A DNA stretch of 34,993 bases from positions 1 to 34,993 of the forward strand of contig CAIMVM010000309.1 in NCBI GenBank assembly GCA_903844895.1, in the 5' to 3' direction. A model generated the notes under the pieces. It was not told the origin of the DNA. It did not search any database and saw only the letters and a program-made list of their open reading frames with translations. Numbering within the stretch: the first letter of the stretch is position 1; every line of letters starts with the position of its first letter. Below are positions 11,034 through 25,471 of this stretch, piece after piece. The position numbers were made by a program, and so were the translations under genes. Origin of the DNA: an uncultured Pseudomonadota bacterium. GTDB lineage: Bacteria; Bdellovibrionota_B; Oligoflexia; Oligoflexales; CAIMVM01.

Positions 11034-12181
11034 CGTTCGTGGCCTTCCCTAAATGGCGTAGCGTTTTGGTTTCGAGGTGCCTTGAGACGATGCAACATCC
11101 AATCTACTATGAGGTTTTTTGGTATACTTGTAAAGCAGGCCTTATCGTTATAGCGACATGATGTGCGGCCATGTTTCGAGCAGGGACGACACCCCAACGG
11201 AGCAGAAAATGCCTGACTCTCATGGGAAAAAGGCATAAAGCCAAAAGCTTCCGTGGTAGGTCCAAAGATCACGCCTGCTGGAGTGCTGACGGCCTCGGCA
11301 ATATGAACGAGGGACGTATCACTACATAATATGAGGCGCACTTGTGATAGGACGAGCATGGTTTCTGGAAGCGTTGTTTTACCGCATAGATTTAGGGTTT
11401 TTTCGGGCCAAGTCAACGATGACAAGATTTTGTCTGCCGCTATTTGATCGTTCATGTCCCCTAAAAAAACGAGGTTGGGTATCCGATCAGAGGAAAGACG
11501 AGCGGCAAACATTTTTAAAACGTCTCGAAATTCTTGCTCGGGATATTTCTTAGTGGCAAATGAGGCGCCAGGTCCTATGGCGATCCAGCTGCCAGTCTCT
11601 AAAGAAATTTGCGACATGAACTCGGTATGAGTTCTTAGTGAGGGACGAGCCTTTTCCAAGGCTTCAACTGCCTTGATCGAACGAAGATTGAGCCCGAATT
11701 CTTCCAAAGATTGTGCGATGGTTTGAACGACAGTATGATACTGGAATGCGATGGGTTTGAGGTCGAGATCGGAAAGTACTCTCGATCTTCCATACCAGCG
11801 AGCTTTTAAAACTAAAAAAGCCCGCTGCCACCGAAACTTCTTGGACTTGATCGCTGATCTTCCCGTTACTTTACTATAATAGCGAGCGAGCCATTGAGAT
11901 CTTGGATTGTCTTGCAAATCAATCAAAATATCCAAACTTTTCAGGAAATTAGCATCCTTGATGCGGGGCTCGTCCGCCTCCATATCGAGAACTTCCACTT
12001 GGGAAAGGGCTGATTTTAAAAGGTCAAGGCATGGTTTTTTTGAAATAAAGTAAATTTTAAAGTTTAAATGGGGAGATGAGGCTTCAATTTGCCGCAAATA
12101 GTCTATGGCAGACGTCGAAAGAACCACATCTCCGATGCTCGAGGTTCTAATGATTCCTAGGGTAATAGTTTGTTGCGTCAA
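11030..12181 (-). CDS. ADP-heptose:LPS heptosyltransferase family protein (GT9), TTG start
   Basis: A GT9 glycosyltransferase that probably adds heptose to the LPS inner core on the cytoplasmic face. It shows the N-terminal LGIIRTSSIGDVVLST (family pattern IRxSSIGDV), a middle WIAIGPGASFATKKYP, and a C-terminal CSDTSLVHIAEAVSTP with VIFGPTTEAFG, followed by a Cys-rich end (CRPCSKHGRTSC) common in heptosyltransferases. The frame stays open to ATG 12238, but I choose TTG 12181. It has GAGGT six bases upstream, puts the conserved motif near the N-terminus, and lies downstream of an extended -10 promoter that falls inside the longer version. This gives 383 residues. It overlaps waaA by four bases. 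Confidence 0.85.
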   Translation of the reverse strand: MTQQTITLGIIRTSSIGDVVLSTSAIDYLRQIEASSPHLNFKIYFISKKPCLDLLKSALSQVEVLDMEADEPRIKDANFLKSLDILIDLQDNPRSQWLARYYSKVTGRSAIKSKKFRWQRAFLVLKARWYGRSRVLSDLDLKPIAFQYHTVVQTIAQSLEEFGLNLRSIKAVEALEKARPSLRTHTEFMSQISLETGSWIAIGPGASFATKKYPEQEFRDVLKMFAARLSSDRIPNLVFLGDMNDQIAADKILSSLTWPEKTLNLCGKTTLPETMLVLSQVRLILCSDTSLVHIAEAVSTPAGVIFGPTTEAFGFMPFSHESQAFSAPLGCRPCSKHGRTSCRYNDKACFTSIPKNLIVDWMLHRLKAPRNQNATPFREGHER

Positions 12182-12224
12182 ATCATACCTCGAGTGAGCT
12201 AACTGTGCTAAAATTACAGGCAGG

Positions 12225-12233
12225 ATTATATCA
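12225..12233 (-). promoter_or_regulatory. Extended -10 promoter for the heptosyltransferase-waaA-rng run
   Basis: On the minus strand the text TGATATAAT is a perfect extended -10 (TGn plus TATAAT). A -35-like ATGTCA lies about 18 bases upstream. Initiation would fall near 12218, downstream of ATG 12238, so the longer reading frame would not be fully transcribed from it. This supports the TTG start at 12181. Confidence 0.5.
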
Positions 12234-12252
12234 GACATATGGGAAAAGTGAC

Positions 12253-13359
12253 ATGACTAACAAGCCGTCTCGAAGATCTGTGCCCCTCAAAAAGCGGAAA
12301 CTTAATATCGTCTATTTTTTGGATTCCGCAAAAAGCAGATCCATTCAGTTGTCCTTAAGGTCAGCAGCGCTTTTTACAGCCTTTTTTGCGGCTTTTACAG
12401 TGTTAGCGGTCATTGGTATTATTGGGGCATCCGACAGAGCTTTGAAAATTCAAATGCTTTCCTCCGAGAATAAGGACTTGAGGAAGTCTCTTTTCGACTA
12501 TCAGACGCGATATGAAGGCGCTTATGCAAAGGCCTATCCAGAAAGTGGAGGTAATTCAGGCAGTTCTGCCGTAAATACCGCCATAGCGCCCGAGAATTTG
12601 CCAACAGAAAAATTTAAGTTGTCGCAAAAAATGGCAGCTAAAACGGCAGATTTTGTAAATGGTTCGAAAAGTGAGATTAGTGCAGATGCAGCCAGCAATT
12701 TGCACGCGTCTAACGAATCTAAAAATGTAGAATCTGATTTGTTGCAGGCGAAGAAGATTCCTAATTCATCACAGACTTTACCTGAAAACAAAGCGAATTC
12801 TGGCGCAAAAAATGACACTCAAGGCGGAATCTCTCCTGAGCTCTCTCTGAGGAAAGAGAAAGTTGCTTTACAAGACGTTGGTAAGGAGGCATCTGCTTCA
12901 AATGCGGATTCCGAATCTTTGACAATCCATAATTCACCGAGTGCTGCAAACAAAAAAAGTGGCAATTTTCCTAAAATCAGCAATGCAAAAATAGAGCAAA
13001 AAGACGGTAGCTACCTTGTTCGGTTTGAGCTTAGAAGCATTCCGGCTAACACCCAGCTCTCAGGCCATCTCTGGGTTGTTGGGGAATTTGACAACGACGG
13101 GAAAAAAGTTTTTTTTACTTCGCCTAAGAGTGTTGAGGTCGACGATTCAGGCATGATTAGGGATACTCAAGCAGGTGAGCGGTATCGCGTCAGAAATTTC
13201 ACAGCTAAGTTTCTAACGCTCAAAGCGGGAACAGCCAAAAAAAGTGAATTGAGAAAAGTAACTATTGGAATCTCTGATGAATCAGGTAACAGGTCGAGTT
13301 ATCCGATTGATCTACCAACCGTCAGCGGCGAAATGGGACAACTTTCTAAAGGTGGCTAA
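12253..13359 (+). CDS. Single-pass inner-membrane coiled-coil protein, unknown function
   Basis: The frame opens at 12205, but ATG 12253 is preferred: it has GGAAAAG upstream and gives a basic cytoplasmic tail (SRRSVPLKKRKL) before the membrane segment. The protein has 368 residues. A membrane helix at about 38-57 is followed by a short coiled coil (about 58-90, LSSENKDLRKSLFDYQ). A long Ser/Ala/Lys/Asn-rich linker, probably disordered, spans about 95-235. A compact beta-rich C-terminal domain (about 240-355) carries VRFELRSIPANTQLSGHLWV. The layout resembles the membrane-proximal part of envelope M23 peptidases such as MepM, but no M23 catalytic domain is present. It precedes a lipoprotein gene by two bases, so the two may span the envelope together. 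Confidence 0.8.
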   Translation: MTNKPSRRSVPLKKRKLNIVYFLDSAKSRSIQLSLRSAALFTAFFAAFTVLAVIGIIGASDRALKIQMLSSENKDLRKSLFDYQTRYEGAYAKAYPESGGNSGSSAVNTAIAPENLPTEKFKLSQKMAAKTADFVNGSKSEISADAASNLHASNESKNVESDLLQAKKIPNSSQTLPENKANSGAKNDTQGGISPELSLRKEKVALQDVGKEASASNADSESLTIHNSPSAANKKSGNFPKISNAKIEQKDGSYLVRFELRSIPANTQLSGHLWVVGEFDNDGKKVFFTSPKSVEVDDSGMIRDTQAGERYRVRNFTAKFLTLKAGTAKKSELRKVTIGISDESGNRSSYPIDLPTVSGEMGQLSKGG

Positions 13360-13361
13360 AG

Positions 13362-15791
13362 ATGAGATTTTTAGCTTTTGTGGTCGTTTTGCTCGTCGGT
13401 TGTAGCCGACCTAAAGTGACACAGAGTATTGAAGTTTTAGTAAAGTCTCAGGGAATAGGCGTCGTTTCATCAGCGCAGATTTCCATAGACCAGCGCCCCA
13501 TAGGAGTGAGCAACGCGCAAGGGATTTGGCGTGGGCGGATGCAATTTGAGGCCAACTCTAAACACAAGATTTCCATTGATGTCGAGAAAAATGGTATTTA
13601 CTTCTCTTCTTGGGAAGCTGAATTTGTGGCAAATGGCGACGCCATAAAGAAAGTTGCAGATCTATTTTCTGTACCTAAACTGTCGGGGAATGCAATTGGA
13701 GACAACGGATCCAAGTTAGAAAGTCATGCCGTCGGTCTTTCCAAATCGCCGGCAGAAGCTCTGGGAGATGCTCTGGGAGATGCTCTGGGAGAAAGGCTGC
13801 GAGAAAGGCTGGGAGAAAGGCTGGGAGAAAGGCTGGGAGAAGCGCCTTCAGAAAGGGCGGCAGAGGCGGCTGAAGATCCCTTCGAAATTTGGCGCAAGAA
13901 CTATACGAAATACACATCCTCCCTACCTCCGATGATGCCTTGGTTGGACCAAACCAGAAGTAGGGTATTTGCTAACCACAAACAGGTAGAGGTCCCTCCC
14001 GAAGGTACCGCTGAGAAAGCTATGCAGACTTCCACGTTCTACCTTCATTCTCAAAGCCGTGCTCAGGAAGGCGGGAAGTTCTGGGTGGGGCTCAAGGAAC
14101 CTAAAGAAATTTGTTCCACAAATAGCCGTGGGCGGTGCTCCGTAGAGACTCCCCCTCAGACAAATCATCTGTTAGTGACTCATGAGGGATTCAAGTCGCA
14201 GATTGTGAGACCAAGAGGGCAGGGGACCCATTATTTAAGACTGGAGCGGGGGTTTAGTCGCGATTTGTTCGTTGCGGCAGGTGATGAGTCCTGGAAAGTC
14301 ACAGCCAAAGGAATGGAAGTGGTGAGGGGCGTGGGAGCAAGCTTTGTCGTCTTAGATCACGATACGGATGAGCTCTATCTGGAATGTGCTGAGCAGTGTT
14401 CCTCGAAACCTCAAAAGATCGTCTTCTCTGGAAGTGGCATTACAACCATCCAAACGCGTTTTACTCGCGATTTATCACCTCTTAAGGTGGAAAAGATGCG
14501 TTTTGCAGGCGACTTTGAAGGGTCTTTGGATCATGCCTATTCGGAAATCGCAAATAGTATTCCGTTAGTTCTTAAAAAGCATGGTTTTAGACAGCCCCGT
14601 GCTGATGAAAACGATTCACCAAGTGTCGTTCTGACATTCGTTAAAAATGCCACATCTGCTGAGAATGTTTCTTCTAAAGATCTTTCTCTAGAGGTTCTTT
14701 TTTTAAATGCCAAGGCCGATGTTATGGGAGCCAGTCTTGGAACGTGTGACAACCGGATAGCAGCATGTTTTGTCCATAGCTTTGAGCGTGCCTATTGGAA
14801 CAGTCGTAACCTGAAGCCTGATGACATTAAAAATGACTCTAAGTCGTCACCAGATACTGAAGTTAAGCTGGTAAACCTCGAAGGAAAACCGTTAAGCGGC
14901 GCTCGCCTCTACAGGGACGGCCTATTTCTAGGAAAAAGTAGGGAGAATGGGAACATGTTAGTCCCTTCTTTGACAAGTAAGACTTTAGAAATAGTCAATG
15001 AAGGCTACAAGTTCTATAGAAACTATATATCCTCGCCCCAGGGGGATCTTCCTGTTTCCTTGGCCCGCGGATCAGCCCTTGTATTGAGTCATAATCCAGA
15101 GATTTCAGCATCTATTTATCAAGATGGATTACGAGTAGGAAAACTTCCTGGTGTCGTCGCGGTGAAATCTACGAAAATAGAACTGGATGCTGGCGAACAT
15201 CTTAAAAAAATTGAATTGAGTTTGGAGTCTGGCGAGTCTTTGGATTTGAGCACGCTCAAATTCTATCCTGACTTACTTGCAACATGGAAGAATCAGGTCT
15301 TGTCTCGAGATTATGCGGGTGCTGAAAAAACAGCAGAGTTAGTAACTAACGATCATCCGGACTGGGCTCCTTTGGCTTATCTGCGGGCTGAAAAGCTCTT
15401 TGTGGAAAAAGGCCTGATATCTGCTGATTTGGAAACCTTGGGACATTATCCTACAGCCCGTTGGTTAAACGCTAAAATTACGGCGCTGAAGACCATTGAG
15501 TCGGCCAAGAGTGTGGATGATTTTAAATCTTTAGATGCATCGGTGGCAGATATTCTGCTCGTTTCTGGCAAGGGGCCTTCCTACGAATTTTTTTCTGAAC
15601 TGCATTATTTAAGGTCTCTCAGTGATCTTAAGCGTTCGATGATTTTAAAGGACCCCCTCGAGTCCGACTTAGCACTTCGTAAGGTCAACGAATGGTTCGA
15701 ATGGGGCTATGGGAATCAATATCAAAGTTTTGGTCGTAGAATGTGGGCTTTGGCGCGAGAACAGTCGATGACCAATAGAAAGGGAATGTGA
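13362..15791 (+). CDS. Large lipoprotein with PEGA-like repeats and a tandem-repeat helix
   Basis: An 809-residue lipoprotein. The signal MRFLAFVVVLLVGCSRPK has a clean LVGC lipobox, Cys14. Residues about 133-161 are a tandem repeat of four-residue units (ALGD, then GERL), encoded by 12-bp DNA repeats. Small beta modules follow. Two around 505-610 (TEVKLVNLEGKPLSGARLYR and SASIYQDGLRVGKLPGVV) resemble PEGA-type surface modules. The final 150 residues are helical and may hold TPR-like pairs (LATWKNQVLSRDYAGAEKTA). No enzyme motif is seen. The gene lies two bases after the coiled-coil membrane protein, and its stop overlaps the following PilZ gene. A structural or scaffolding role at the outer membrane is inference. 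Confidence 0.78.
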   Translation: MRFLAFVVVLLVGCSRPKVTQSIEVLVKSQGIGVVSSAQISIDQRPIGVSNAQGIWRGRMQFEANSKHKISIDVEKNGIYFSSWEAEFVANGDAIKKVADLFSVPKLSGNAIGDNGSKLESHAVGLSKSPAEALGDALGDALGERLRERLGERLGERLGEAPSERAAEAAEDPFEIWRKNYTKYTSSLPPMMPWLDQTRSRVFANHKQVEVPPEGTAEKAMQTSTFYLHSQSRAQEGGKFWVGLKEPKEICSTNSRGRCSVETPPQTNHLLVTHEGFKSQIVRPRGQGTHYLRLERGFSRDLFVAAGDESWKVTAKGMEVVRGVGASFVVLDHDTDELYLECAEQCSSKPQKIVFSGSGITTIQTRFTRDLSPLKVEKMRFAGDFEGSLDHAYSEIANSIPLVLKKHGFRQPRADENDSPSVVLTFVKNATSAENVSSKDLSLEVLFLNAKADVMGASLGTCDNRIAACFVHSFERAYWNSRNLKPDDIKNDSKSSPDTEVKLVNLEGKPLSGARLYRDGLFLGKSRENGNMLVPSLTSKTLEIVNEGYKFYRNYISSPQGDLPVSLARGSALVLSHNPEISASIYQDGLRVGKLPGVVAVKSTKIELDAGEHLKKIELSLESGESLDLSTLKFYPDLLATWKNQVLSRDYAGAEKTAELVTNDHPDWAPLAYLRAEKLFVEKGLISADLETLGHYPTARWLNAKITALKTIESAKSVDDFKSLDASVADILLVSGKGPSYEFFSELHYLRSLSDLKRSMILKDPLESDLALRKVNEWFEWGYGNQYQSFGRRMWALAREQSMTNRKGM
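13758..13842 (+). repeat. 12-bp minisatellite inside the lipoprotein gene
   Basis: Seven near-identical 12-bp units: three of the form GCTCTGGGAGAT or close, then four of the form AGGCTGGGAGAA. They encode ALGD and ERLG units, which put Leu at every fourth residue and suggest an amphipathic helix. The unit length is a multiple of three, so slippage would change helix length without breaking the frame. Confidence 0.85.
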
Positions 15792-21952: not shown

Positions 21953-23845
21953 ATGATACATATAAAAACTCAGGCAGATCACGATAAGTACACAAAAATG
22001 GCGAGAACCGACAGGGATGGCTTTTGGCGGGAAGCCTCGGCCTCTTTTTTTTGGCGCAAAGCTCCCAAGCTGATCTCTCAAGGTAAACTTGGCGAAAAAG
22101 TGACTTGGTTTGAGGATTCCCTATTGAATCTTTCTGAGAACTGCCTCGATAGACATATGGCCTCCAAGGCAAATCAAACAGCTTTAATTTGGGAGCCCAA
22201 CAGTCCAGATGCCCCAAGTCGAAGTTTTACTTATCGCGAACTTAAGCGTGAAGTCGAAGTGTTTGCTAATACTCTTAAGAAATTGGGAGTCAAGAAAGGG
22301 GATCGTGTAGTCATTTATATGGCGATGATTCCAGAGCTCATGTTTAGTGTTTTGGCCTGCGCGCGCATAGGCGCCGTCCATTGCGTAGTGTTTGCTGGTT
22401 TTTCAGCTAAATCTTTGTCGGCTAGAATTGAGGATTCAGGAGCTGAATTTATAATTATAAGTAGCGGAGCTGCAAGGGGAGCTAAGTGCATTCCGCTCAA
22501 GGGAATCGTTGACGATGCTTTGATGATGTCTCCGAGAGTCAAAACATGTCTCGCTATAAAACATACGGATGAAGCTCTGTCGATGAAGACACCTCGCGAT
22601 GTTTGGTATCATGAAGCATCCATCGGTGTGTCTGACTCTTGTGAAGCAGTTTCAGTAAGCGGTGAAGATCCACTTTTTATTCTTTATACCTCTGGATCGA
22701 CCGGTAAGCCTAAAGGACTCCTTCACACCACTGCTGGTTATATGGTTTATGCGGAATATACCTTTAGAAATGTATTCCAAGTCCAACAAGGGGATCTTTT
22801 TTGGTGTACTGCCGATCTAGGTTGGATCACGGGTCATACCTATCTCACTTATGGCCCGCTTTTGAGTGGAGCCACCACATTGATGTTTGAAGGAATTCCG
22901 ACTTGGCCAGATGCTTCAAGATTTTGGCAAGTTATAGATCGTCACCAGGTCACTCACTTCTACACGGCTCCCACGGCTATCCGTACTCTGGAAGCTTTTG
23001 GTCTAACCCCCTTTACGGGGGTGGCCCTGGACTCCCTTAAAGTTTTGGGGAGTGTCGGCGAGCCTATTAATGAAGAGGCGTGGCAGTGGTATTTTGAAAA
23101 TGTGGGACGATCAAGGGTGCCGATTGTGGACACTTGGTGGCAAACCGAGACAGGTGGGATCATGATTTCCACTCTTGCTGGCGTAACTCCTGCTCTTCCT
23201 ACTTTTGCGACACTTCCTCTTCCTGGAGTGGAGCCGGTACTTTTGAATAGTGATGGTAAAGAAGTTGCGACGCAAGCCGGGGAAGGAGCTTTGTGTATCA
23301 AAGAACCATGGCCAGGAATGGCAAGGACTGTTTTTGGTGACTGGCAGAGATATCAAGACACTTATTTAAAGGCCTACCCGGGTTACTATTTTACGGGTGA
23401 TGGCGCTAAACGCGATGATCACGGCAATTACAGAATTACAGGCAGGATTGATGATATTATTATTGTCTCAGGCCACAATATAGGCACCGCAGAGGTAGAA
23501 GATGCTTTAGACCTTCATCCTAGTGTGGTGGAATCAGCAGTCGTTGGGTATTCTCATCCGGTGAAGGGGCAGGGGATTCATGGCTTTTTGATTTGTTCCG
23601 ACCCCAGTATAGATCGCGATAAGCTAAAAAGTGAGCTTCTTACCTTGGTGACACGTGAACTTGGACCTATTGCTAAACCCGAACGCTTTCAGGTGGTGGC
23701 TGGGCTGCCAAAAACTCGATCAGGAAAAATCATGCGCCGCATTTTGCGCAAAATAGCAGAAGCGGAAACCAAAGACTTTGGAGATGTCTCTACTCTGCTG
23801 AATCCAGAGATTGTCGACCAAATTTTAAAGGCCGAGATTTTTTAA
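21953..23845 (+). CDS. acs: Acetyl-CoA synthetase (AMP-forming)
   Basis: A 630-residue enzyme that activates acetate, or possibly a related short acid, to acyl-CoA through an acyl-AMP intermediate. The P-loop-like YTSGSTGKPKGLLHT, the WWQTETGG motif, the hinge TGDGAKRDDHGNYRITGR, and TRSGKIMRRILRKIA near the C-terminus (with the Lys that is acetylated in Acs enzymes) are all seen. The N-terminal ACS domain (FWREASASFFWRK) favours acetyl- or propionyl-CoA synthetase over long-chain ligases. Length is close to the usual 650. The ribosome binding site is weak. No intrinsic terminator is clear downstream. Confidence 0.93.
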   Translation: MIHIKTQADHDKYTKMARTDRDGFWREASASFFWRKAPKLISQGKLGEKVTWFEDSLLNLSENCLDRHMASKANQTALIWEPNSPDAPSRSFTYRELKREVEVFANTLKKLGVKKGDRVVIYMAMIPELMFSVLACARIGAVHCVVFAGFSAKSLSARIEDSGAEFIIISSGAARGAKCIPLKGIVDDALMMSPRVKTCLAIKHTDEALSMKTPRDVWYHEASIGVSDSCEAVSVSGEDPLFILYTSGSTGKPKGLLHTTAGYMVYAEYTFRNVFQVQQGDLFWCTADLGWITGHTYLTYGPLLSGATTLMFEGIPTWPDASRFWQVIDRHQVTHFYTAPTAIRTLEAFGLTPFTGVALDSLKVLGSVGEPINEEAWQWYFENVGRSRVPIVDTWWQTETGGIMISTLAGVTPALPTFATLPLPGVEPVLLNSDGKEVATQAGEGALCIKEPWPGMARTVFGDWQRYQDTYLKAYPGYYFTGDGAKRDDHGNYRITGRIDDIIIVSGHNIGTAEVEDALDLHPSVVESAVVGYSHPVKGQGIHGFLICSDPSIDRDKLKSELLTLVTRELGPIAKPERFQVVAGLPKTRSGKIMRRILRKIAEAETKDFGDVSTLLNPEIVDQILKAEIF

Positions 23846-23952
23846 CTTCTATTTTCTGAAATACTTTTTTTGCAGACAAAATCGCTCAGGCTTTTGATAG
23901 AGTCTGGGTCTTTTTGTGGAATCGGCAAGTCGCAAATCTAAGCAGTGCGAAG

Positions 23953-23961
23953 TTATCCACA
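23953..23961 (+). promoter_or_regulatory. DnaA box (perfect)
   Basis: TTATCCACA, an exact match to the strongest DnaA box consensus. Confidence 0.7.
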
Positions 23962-24192
23962 GGACTACATTATTTTACCCAAAGATGGGTGCTATCTTTT
24001 TTCAAAGTGCCTTCAAGATGGGAATCTTTAAAGAAAGGAGCGCTCTATTTAGGGCCTTCAAGCTGCCTACGTTTTCATTTTGGAGTGTCGCGACAAACTT
24101 ATAACAACAAATTTAACCACTTATGGGTTTTCCAAAAAGTGCCTAAAAAAGTTTATGAAGAGTGATGGGTAGAGTTGTATCTAGAAAGAGGT

Positions 24193-24201
24193 TGTGGATA
24201 A
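24193..24201 (-). promoter_or_regulatory. DnaA box (perfect)
   Basis: TGTGGATAA on the plus strand, the reverse complement of TTATCCACA. Confidence 0.7.
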
Positions 24202-24223
24202 CATCGTTTCCTGTGCGCAGCCC

Positions 24224-24232
24224 TGTGGATAA
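24224..24232 (-). promoter_or_regulatory. DnaA box (perfect)
   Basis: TGTGGATAA again, 31 bases from the previous box (about three helical turns) and in the same orientation. Confidence 0.7.
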
Positions 24233-24235
24233 TGA

Positions 24236-24244
24236 TGTGGATAC
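24236..24244 (-). promoter_or_regulatory. DnaA box (one mismatch)
   Basis: TGTGGATAC, reverse complement GTATCCACA, directly beside the perfect box at 24224 and in the same orientation. Confidence 0.45.
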
Positions 24245-24317
24245 ATTTATTCCATCTCATCCGAGCGAAGCAAAACAAAAATTACAAATCAACTTATCGT
24301 TCGTTTTCTTTCAACTT

Positions 24318-24326
24318 TTATTCACA
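24318..24326 (+). promoter_or_regulatory. DnaA box (TTATTCACA form)
   Basis: TTATTCACA fits the relaxed consensus TTWTNCACA. It sits in an A+T-rich stretch. Confidence 0.5.
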
Positions 24327-24389
24327 AATCATTTAACGAATATCGTCTGAATGGGATACAGGAATGCTATTTATTCTGCAAGTAAAAAG

Positions 24390-25370
24390 TTACGCCATAC
24401 CAAACTTTATTTCGGAAGGTGAGTTAGTTGAAATTTTAAGCACCGATTGCCGTTCTTCACCTTTAGAGTTTTCAACTTTCAATATATGAGTTCCAAAAGG
24501 CAACATCAGTTTTACTTCTTGGGCATGGGCTTTCACATCACCATTTACATAAACCAGGGACTGATCTGCGAACGATAGATTCACGCTTGCAGCCCCAGAG
24601 GAAAGTTCAGAAGGAAGTTTTGGTAGTTCTTCTAAAAAACAACAGTTTAGGGTTTCAAATCCGTCTTTGAGTTTAGTTTGTCTCACTGCAGCAAAACATC
24701 GAATTTGAATTCTGTTTTTTCCCCAACGCAAAGTTGTTTGGAGGTAAATCAGAATGGGGGGTGGTTCGTTGGCTTGAATACGCTTGATACCAAGGCCACC
24801 TTTGGACAGGGTTACAATCTCACCGTTGGTTTGTGTTTTAATATCAAAAAAGGGAGCTGATTTATCAGTTCCACGGTAAACCAATCTATCATTCCATATG
24901 GTTGTCACCCCTTTTTCAGCAGAATAGAAACTATTGCGCTCTAGGACAAGTTCGCCGGTCAATATTTTAGATGTAACTGCCTGGGGGACTCTATATACCG
25001 TGCATGGACTTTCTAATTGACGCCTTTCATGAAAGCGCGTCGGTGCACTCTGGAGTATAAGCGTATTACCAAAAGCCTCCCTAATGACGACCTGTGTGGT
25101 GATAAAAGGTTTCGTTAAAAAAGCGATCACTAGGCTTTGTTTGTACTCAAAGCCTCTGGGCATGGCCTTGACTTTGAGTTGAAGGTCTCCATTCACAAGT
25201 TTCGCAAAAGCATCAAGATTCGTTCCTGATCGGGAGAGAACCTTAACATTTAAGCCATTGGTGAGTAGGAGCTTAAAGGCCGGATCTTCAAGCATGATAT
25301 TTAGGGACAGTTGTCTTGCTTTGGGTCTAACCAAATTTCCTAAATCTTGTGGGGGAAATGTTTTTTTCAT
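24390..25370 (-). CDS. PilZ-like protein with a C-terminal PEGA-like beta module
   Basis: A 326-residue protein, probably cytoplasmic at its N-terminus, with no signal peptide. The frame opens two codons earlier (25376), but ATG 25370 has GAGGA at proper spacing and is preferred. Residues about 110-235 look like a diverged PilZ domain: a basic RFHERRQLE (112-120) where RxxxR would be, and VTLSKGGLGIKR (186-197) where D/NxSxxG would be, with Asp replaced by Thr. Residues about 260-326 form a beta-rich, PEGA-like module (QSLVYVNGDVKAHA, then LPFGTHILKVENSKGEERQS). c-di-GMP binding is doubtful given the replaced residue. It is the last gene of the minus-strand run. Confidence 0.6.
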   Translation of the reverse strand: MKKTFPPQDLGNLVRPKARQLSLNIMLEDPAFKLLLTNGLNVKVLSRSGTNLDAFAKLVNGDLQLKVKAMPRGFEYKQSLVIAFLTKPFITTQVVIREAFGNTLILQSAPTRFHERRQLESPCTVYRVPQAVTSKILTGELVLERNSFYSAEKGVTTIWNDRLVYRGTDKSAPFFDIKTQTNGEIVTLSKGGLGIKRIQANEPPPILIYLQTTLRWGKNRIQIRCFAAVRQTKLKDGFETLNCCFLEELPKLPSELSSGAASVNLSFADQSLVYVNGDVKAHAQEVKLMLPFGTHILKVENSKGEERQSVLKISTNSPSEIKFGMA

Positions 25371-25471
25371 AACCATCCTCTAAATTAAGGCTTCCTTAGC
25401 CCATAGTTTGAGGATCGGCAGCTCCACTTCCAAATCTAAATATAAATAAAAATTCTTGTATTTATAGATGG

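Follow-up and report, generated by a model that had tools for sequence, protein, structure and literature searches.

The window analyzed here is the whole of contig C309 (34,993 nucleotides) of the draft genome G000, which comprises 4.23 Mb in 372 contigs, is 95.6% complete and is the single member of its family in our comparison set. Boxes were searched for with the perfect word TTATCCACA, the looser pattern TTWTNCACA and the Bdellovibrio consensus NNWTCCACA, and their coding or non-coding status was assigned by open reading frames. A 544-bp gap between two convergent genes (23846-24389) holds three perfect copies of TTATCCACA together with TTATTCACA and GTATCCACA, arranged as follows.

21953-23845, plus strand: acetyl-CoA-synthetase-like gene (AMP-binding), pointing into the cluster
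23884-23909, plus strand: terminator-like hairpin at the end of the acetyl-CoA-synthetase-like gene
23915-23923, minus strand: weak candidate box GATTCCACA, fitting NNWTCCACA (Bdellovibrio consensus)
23953-23961, plus strand: perfect predicted DnaA box TTATCCACA, by sequence pattern
24193-24201, minus strand: perfect predicted DnaA box TTATCCACA, by sequence pattern
24224-24232, minus strand: perfect predicted DnaA box TTATCCACA, by sequence pattern, followed by GG as in the origin box
24236-24244, minus strand: near-match box GTATCCACA, fitting NNWTCCACA, the Bdellovibrio consensus (PMC5124646)
24280-24339, no strand: A+T peak of the gap (75% over 60 bp), without a DnaA-trio
24287-24299, plus strand: IHF-like AATCAACTTATCG, one mismatch to WATCAANNNNTTR, between the boxes at 24236 and 24318
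24318-24326, plus strand: box TTATTCACA, fitting TTWTNCACA
24390-25376, minus strand: hypothetical protein gene (328 aa) without a Pfam match, pointing into the cluster

The initial annotation had described three perfect boxes, one further box and one near-match in about 375 bases; all five were located and they span 374 bp, a box cluster of the kind looked for in an oriC. The boxes at 24193 and 23953 form a 14-nt inverted repeat (93%). With its flanks, the box at 23953 reads GTTATCCACAGGACT; these 15 nt recur unchanged at the box between dnaA and dnaN, and the other boxes in the genome match them over 12 contiguous bases at most. The extension TTATCCACAGG is common to the boxes at 23953 and 24224 and to the dnaA-dnaN box, and is present in no coding copy in the genome. 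The IHF-like sites with one mismatch occur at chance level, with 44 in the window and about 0.7 expected per 544 bp.

The flanking genes converge on the boxes, as had been read from the sequence (21953-23845 on the plus strand, 24390-25376 on the minus strand), and no sigma-70-like promoter was seen in the gap. Searches of the gap likewise returned no Rfam family and no credible small gene, its RNA folding is nothing unusual (z -1.1), and the gap and window searches found no tRNA, iterons or rep gene. A second terminator-like hairpin lies at 23976. The closest relatives of the acetyl-CoA-synthetase-like gene (54-59% identity) are mostly Bacteroidota, which points to a possible horizontal transfer and made the gene unusable for establishing synteny. 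The 328-aa protein has distant homologues (22-30%) in five relatives, and no DnaA boxes were found beside the homologue genes in those five.

The looser pattern TTWTNCACA occurs eight times in the window against 3.6 expected, with four of the eight inside the 374 bp. Across the genome it is not enriched (289 matches vs 272 for the reversed pattern), and its frequency of one per 14.6 kb is near the figure of about one per 16 kb estimated earlier from base counts. Perfect boxes are mildly over-represented only, with 33 observed vs 23; 21 of these are coding and about 12 non-coding, the latter comprising three in the gap, one between dnaA and dnaN, two at one end of a small plasmid-like contig and six that occur singly. 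The gap is the one place in the 4.23 Mb draft where three perfect boxes fall within less than 300 bp. Finding three of the 33 within 280 bp has P = 7.5e-5 under uniform placement and P = 0.7-4e-4 when placement is confined to non-coding DNA, values that are weakened somewhat by the motif having been picked after the window was read. We also scanned 56 class genomes for two boxes on the same strand separated by 11-41 bp, using the reversed pattern as control. The reversed control gave zero matches and most true matches adjoin dnaA; the only same-strand pair of boxes at most 41 bp apart in this genome is in the gap. The box cluster is thus real and non-random, and the strong local excess noted at the outset is borne out as clustering, the overall word count not being enriched.

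The chromosomal origin is found elsewhere. Contig C367 carries dnaA (12091-13494), a 320-bp spacer, dnaN and then gyrB, and the spacer contains TTATCCACA, TCATCCACA and CTACTACTACTACTATTA, the last a DnaA-trio-like run with a five-fold CTA that is present likewise in the dnaA-dnaN spacers of order relatives. Genes for ParA and ParB lie 3-5 kb upstream of dnaA on the same contig, accompanied by four parS-like GTTCCACGTGGAAC sites. These four sites, of which GTTCCACGTGGAAC is the consensus, are at L037 8960-9325 (G000:C367), beside parAB and 3 kb from dnaA, and an ATP synthase subunit a gene sits between the parS/parAB area and dnaA. GC skew was calculated per contig at four-fold sites, with gene strand corrected and with bootstrap intervals. 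At dnaA-dnaN it changes from -0.10 to +0.06 (bootstrap P 0.055, suggestive by itself), whereas through the window it is steady at +0.11 to +0.14, with a change of +0.030 (interval -0.077 to 0.166). The comparison proposed in the initial annotation, GC skew and position relative to dnaA and dnaN, points to C367. The window contains no parS, no parAB, dnaA, dnaN or gyrB and no other origin-linked gene, and no DnaA-trio run of at least four units was found beside boxes in the gap or window.

The gap cluster is therefore not oriC, and the origin adjoins dnaA on C367: the dnaA-dnaN pair, the DnaA-trio, parAB/parS and the skew change are all on C367 and none is in the window. The suggestion of a possible oriC was dropped, and the doubt about an origin that had been raised from gene direction proved sound. 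It is highly improbable that the gap serves as the chromosome's origin of replication or as a second, active one; its several boxes and the adjoining 75% A+T stretch would suit an origin, but the flanking genes are convergent and the origin hallmarks stand on the other contig. Origin layout varies among the relatives. In the class-mate G043 (L215 4304-8723), a minus-strand gene separates dnaA from a cluster of 12 boxes, and the next plus-strand gene, presumably dnaN, comes after that cluster. Some genomes of families f7, f8 and f10 (L130, L135, L140, L141, L148, L150) have no NNWTCCACA in the dnaA-dnaN spacer, and in these either the origin may have moved or the DnaA-box consensus may have changed.

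Synteny was traced through ribBA in 20 order relatives, and none has a comparable cluster at that place, G012 having three weak or scattered boxes there. A DNA comparison of the gap against 57 further class genomes yielded just two short, chance-like matches, of which the G037 match lacks a box cluster. Because no comparable cluster is seen at the syntenic place in relatives, the location of the gap cluster appears, by this sequence comparison, to be lineage-specific.

The relatives do carry clustered DnaA boxes at another place. Of the 39 order genomes, 12 that belong to seven other families (f3, f5, f6, f9, f10, f11 and f7) have boxes clustered just 3' of rplT (ribosomal protein L20; rplT located by tblastn), at the following loci.

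G036: L174 and L203
G032: L260
G004: L241
G017: L242
G002: L264
G011: L266
G005: L191
G012: L240
G008: L226
G016: L229
G013: L233
G030: L261

Each site has two to five boxes or near-boxes, mostly no more than about 140 bp past the stop codon. By a strict count, 11 of the 39 order genomes have at least two boxes within 150 bp of rplT, compared with 2/463 other gene ends in a control set that itself includes some rplT ends; among class-mates outside the order, 0/14 have an rplT box cluster. In several genomes the terminator hairpin of rplT has the first box as one of its arms, as with TTATCCACAGACATCGAAAGATTCTGTGGATTTTTTTTT in G036. Further on, G002, G013, G032, G036 and G008 have a head-to-head pair, TTATCCACA-N6/7-TGTGGATAA or closely similar to it. 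The distance from rplT to dnaA is about 100-240 kb in the compared genomes that have both on one contig. Literature searched for DnaA boxes with rplT contained no rplT-linked DnaA-box cluster, and these clusters are a more novel part of our results than the gap cluster. Their occurrence in seven families means that extra-origin sites look selected in this order. The genome studied here has no boxes at its own rplT. That the gap cluster is the counterpart of the missing site is only suggestive, because rplT boxes are also missing in f8, f2 and most f7 and f11 genomes. A second tight box group is seen near an M48-peptidase gene in two genomes of one family, at L208 7308-7338 (G004:C68) and L202 2315-2369 (G028:C251); the L208 group is 35 kb from dnaA, and the M48-peptidase site is possibly a second conserved extra-origin site.

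Considering the known regulatory sites, a strict equivalent of datA or DARS, in which a DnaA complex catalyzes ATP hydrolysis on DnaA or the release of ADP with the help of a DNA-bending protein, is unlikely. The DARS core consists of three DnaA boxes of which I and II are in opposing orientation (PMC8682772). The gap does have three close boxes and two outlying ones, with an IHF-like site between the boxes at 24236 and 24318, and the genome encodes HU/IHF-family proteins (on C133, C190 and C301), one closest to IHF-beta yet under its cut-off. The close boxes (24193, 24224 and 24236), however, are all on the minus strand, no Fis match was found, and the IHF-like site is of a kind expected by chance. 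Since the close boxes include no opposing I/II pair, the possible DARS of the initial annotation is unsupported in its strict sense. That a nine-base word came together by chance in non-coding DNA, with no function, is quite unlikely as well: the single genome representing the family offers no demonstrable conservation and the word is only mildly over-represented, but the simulated clustering probability of about 1e-4, the flanks shared with the origin box and the empty reversed control all argue against it.

DnaA could instead act at the gap as a transcription factor or a roadblock, controlling an unannotated small RNA or halting converging read-through. DnaA bound at datA and near the asnC terminator of E. 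coli hinders transcription by RNA polymerase (PMC10950094), terminator-like hairpins are present at 23884 and 23976, and boxes form part of the rplT terminator in relatives. Against this, the gap has no promoter-like site, Rfam match or unusual RNA folding, and we regard such a role as improbable. Descent of the gap from a plasmid or phage origin that once integrated is very improbable. Plasmid origins often carry DnaA boxes, and the acetyl-CoA-synthetase-like gene may have been transferred, but the gap has no match in 72,556 plasmids or 50,697 phages, and it comes with none of the iterons, rep gene or tRNA sought. Separately, the 5.2-kb contig C314 (L038) has two perfect boxes at its end, at 59 and 168. 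This contig looks like a plasmid or like DNA foreign to the bin; the plasmid comparison gave no match for it, and its box pair was set aside.

A DnaA titration or conditioning site, a name that reflects probable action, is the simplest and best remaining reading of this promoter-free convergent gap, and we put its probability at about one half. It is supported by the only three-box group within less than 300 bp in the 4.23 Mb and by the origin-like flanks at 23953 and 24224, as well as by an intact DnaA, an origin located elsewhere, a gap devoid of promoter, Rfam family or small gene, and the extra-origin rplT clusters of the order relatives. Box density in the gap is far above background at a place outside oriC, as would be expected of an extra-origin titration-type cluster. 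DnaA itself is full-length and normal (TIGR00362, 512 bits), with its DNA-binding signature KDHTTVMHA conserved. No Hda-like gene was found among the PF00308 matches, which looked IstB- or DnaC-like, a weak absence given a genome 95.6% complete; with none seen, another check on DnaA would be useful. Counted against the titration reading are that three strong boxes make only a small sink, that the box arrangement differs from that of the rplT clusters, and that neither the ribBA synteny nor the DNA comparison with class genomes turned up a similar site. Of the earlier proposal of a titration or DnaA-reactivation site, the general titration or conditioning part stands as the best remaining reading, while the strict DARS part is unsupported, the close boxes being co-directional.

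It is established that the boxes exist and cluster, that they lie in a promoter-poor stretch between convergent genes and that the origin is elsewhere; DnaA binding, titration and an effect on timing at the gap are what we infer, with a mechanism drawn from the anatomy of the locus. DnaA, whose box-reading helix-turn-helix is conserved, would bind the perfect boxes first and the weaker neighbors next. Binding would leave less DnaA free to act at the origin, or tie DnaA up in a complex in which its activity is altered. Passage of the replication fork would duplicate the site, giving twice as many sinks and thereby delaying re-initiation.

DNA sites that inactivate or titrate DnaA are well proven in E. 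coli, and Bacillus subtilis has several intergenic DnaA-box groups outside oriC that are thought to titrate DnaA. By analogy, the element may act like datA or the DnaA clusters of B. subtilis, and we do not claim identity with datA or DARS. Like datA, it is a non-coding DnaA-box cluster off oriC with few strong boxes, weaker neighbors and an IHF-like site among them; datA, however, follows a tRNA operon and depends on IHF binding in the interval from box 2 to box 3, whereas the gap lies between convergent protein genes with an IHF-like site at chance level. The likeness seen is one of layout. The gap shares with DARS1 and DARS2 of E. coli an intergenic core of three close boxes and differs in their co-directional orientation and in the lack of a detected Fis site. 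It differs from the B. subtilis clusters in location and partners. The oriC of Bdellovibrio bacteriovorus has the same box consensus, NNWTCCACA, in a dnaA-dnaN spacer with an unwinding element (PMC5124646); unlike it, the gap is off the dnaA-dnaN spacer and is without a DnaA-trio.

It is conceivable, if doubtful, that this order ties its initiator to growth through extra-origin box clusters, that boxes at the rplT terminator let DnaA sense ribosomal transcription, and that the present family lost the rplT site, with the window holding its counterpart. The datA locus of E. coli, behind a tRNA operon, may be likened to the boxes at the end of the rplT operon in this order. To our knowledge, such DnaA control sites are little known outside a few model bacteria. 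The results bear on how bacteria without the E. coli regulators limit replication to once per cycle, and the gap cluster and the order-conserved rplT terminator boxes provide concrete places at which a widespread, ribosome-coupled control of DnaA by DNA sites may be tested.
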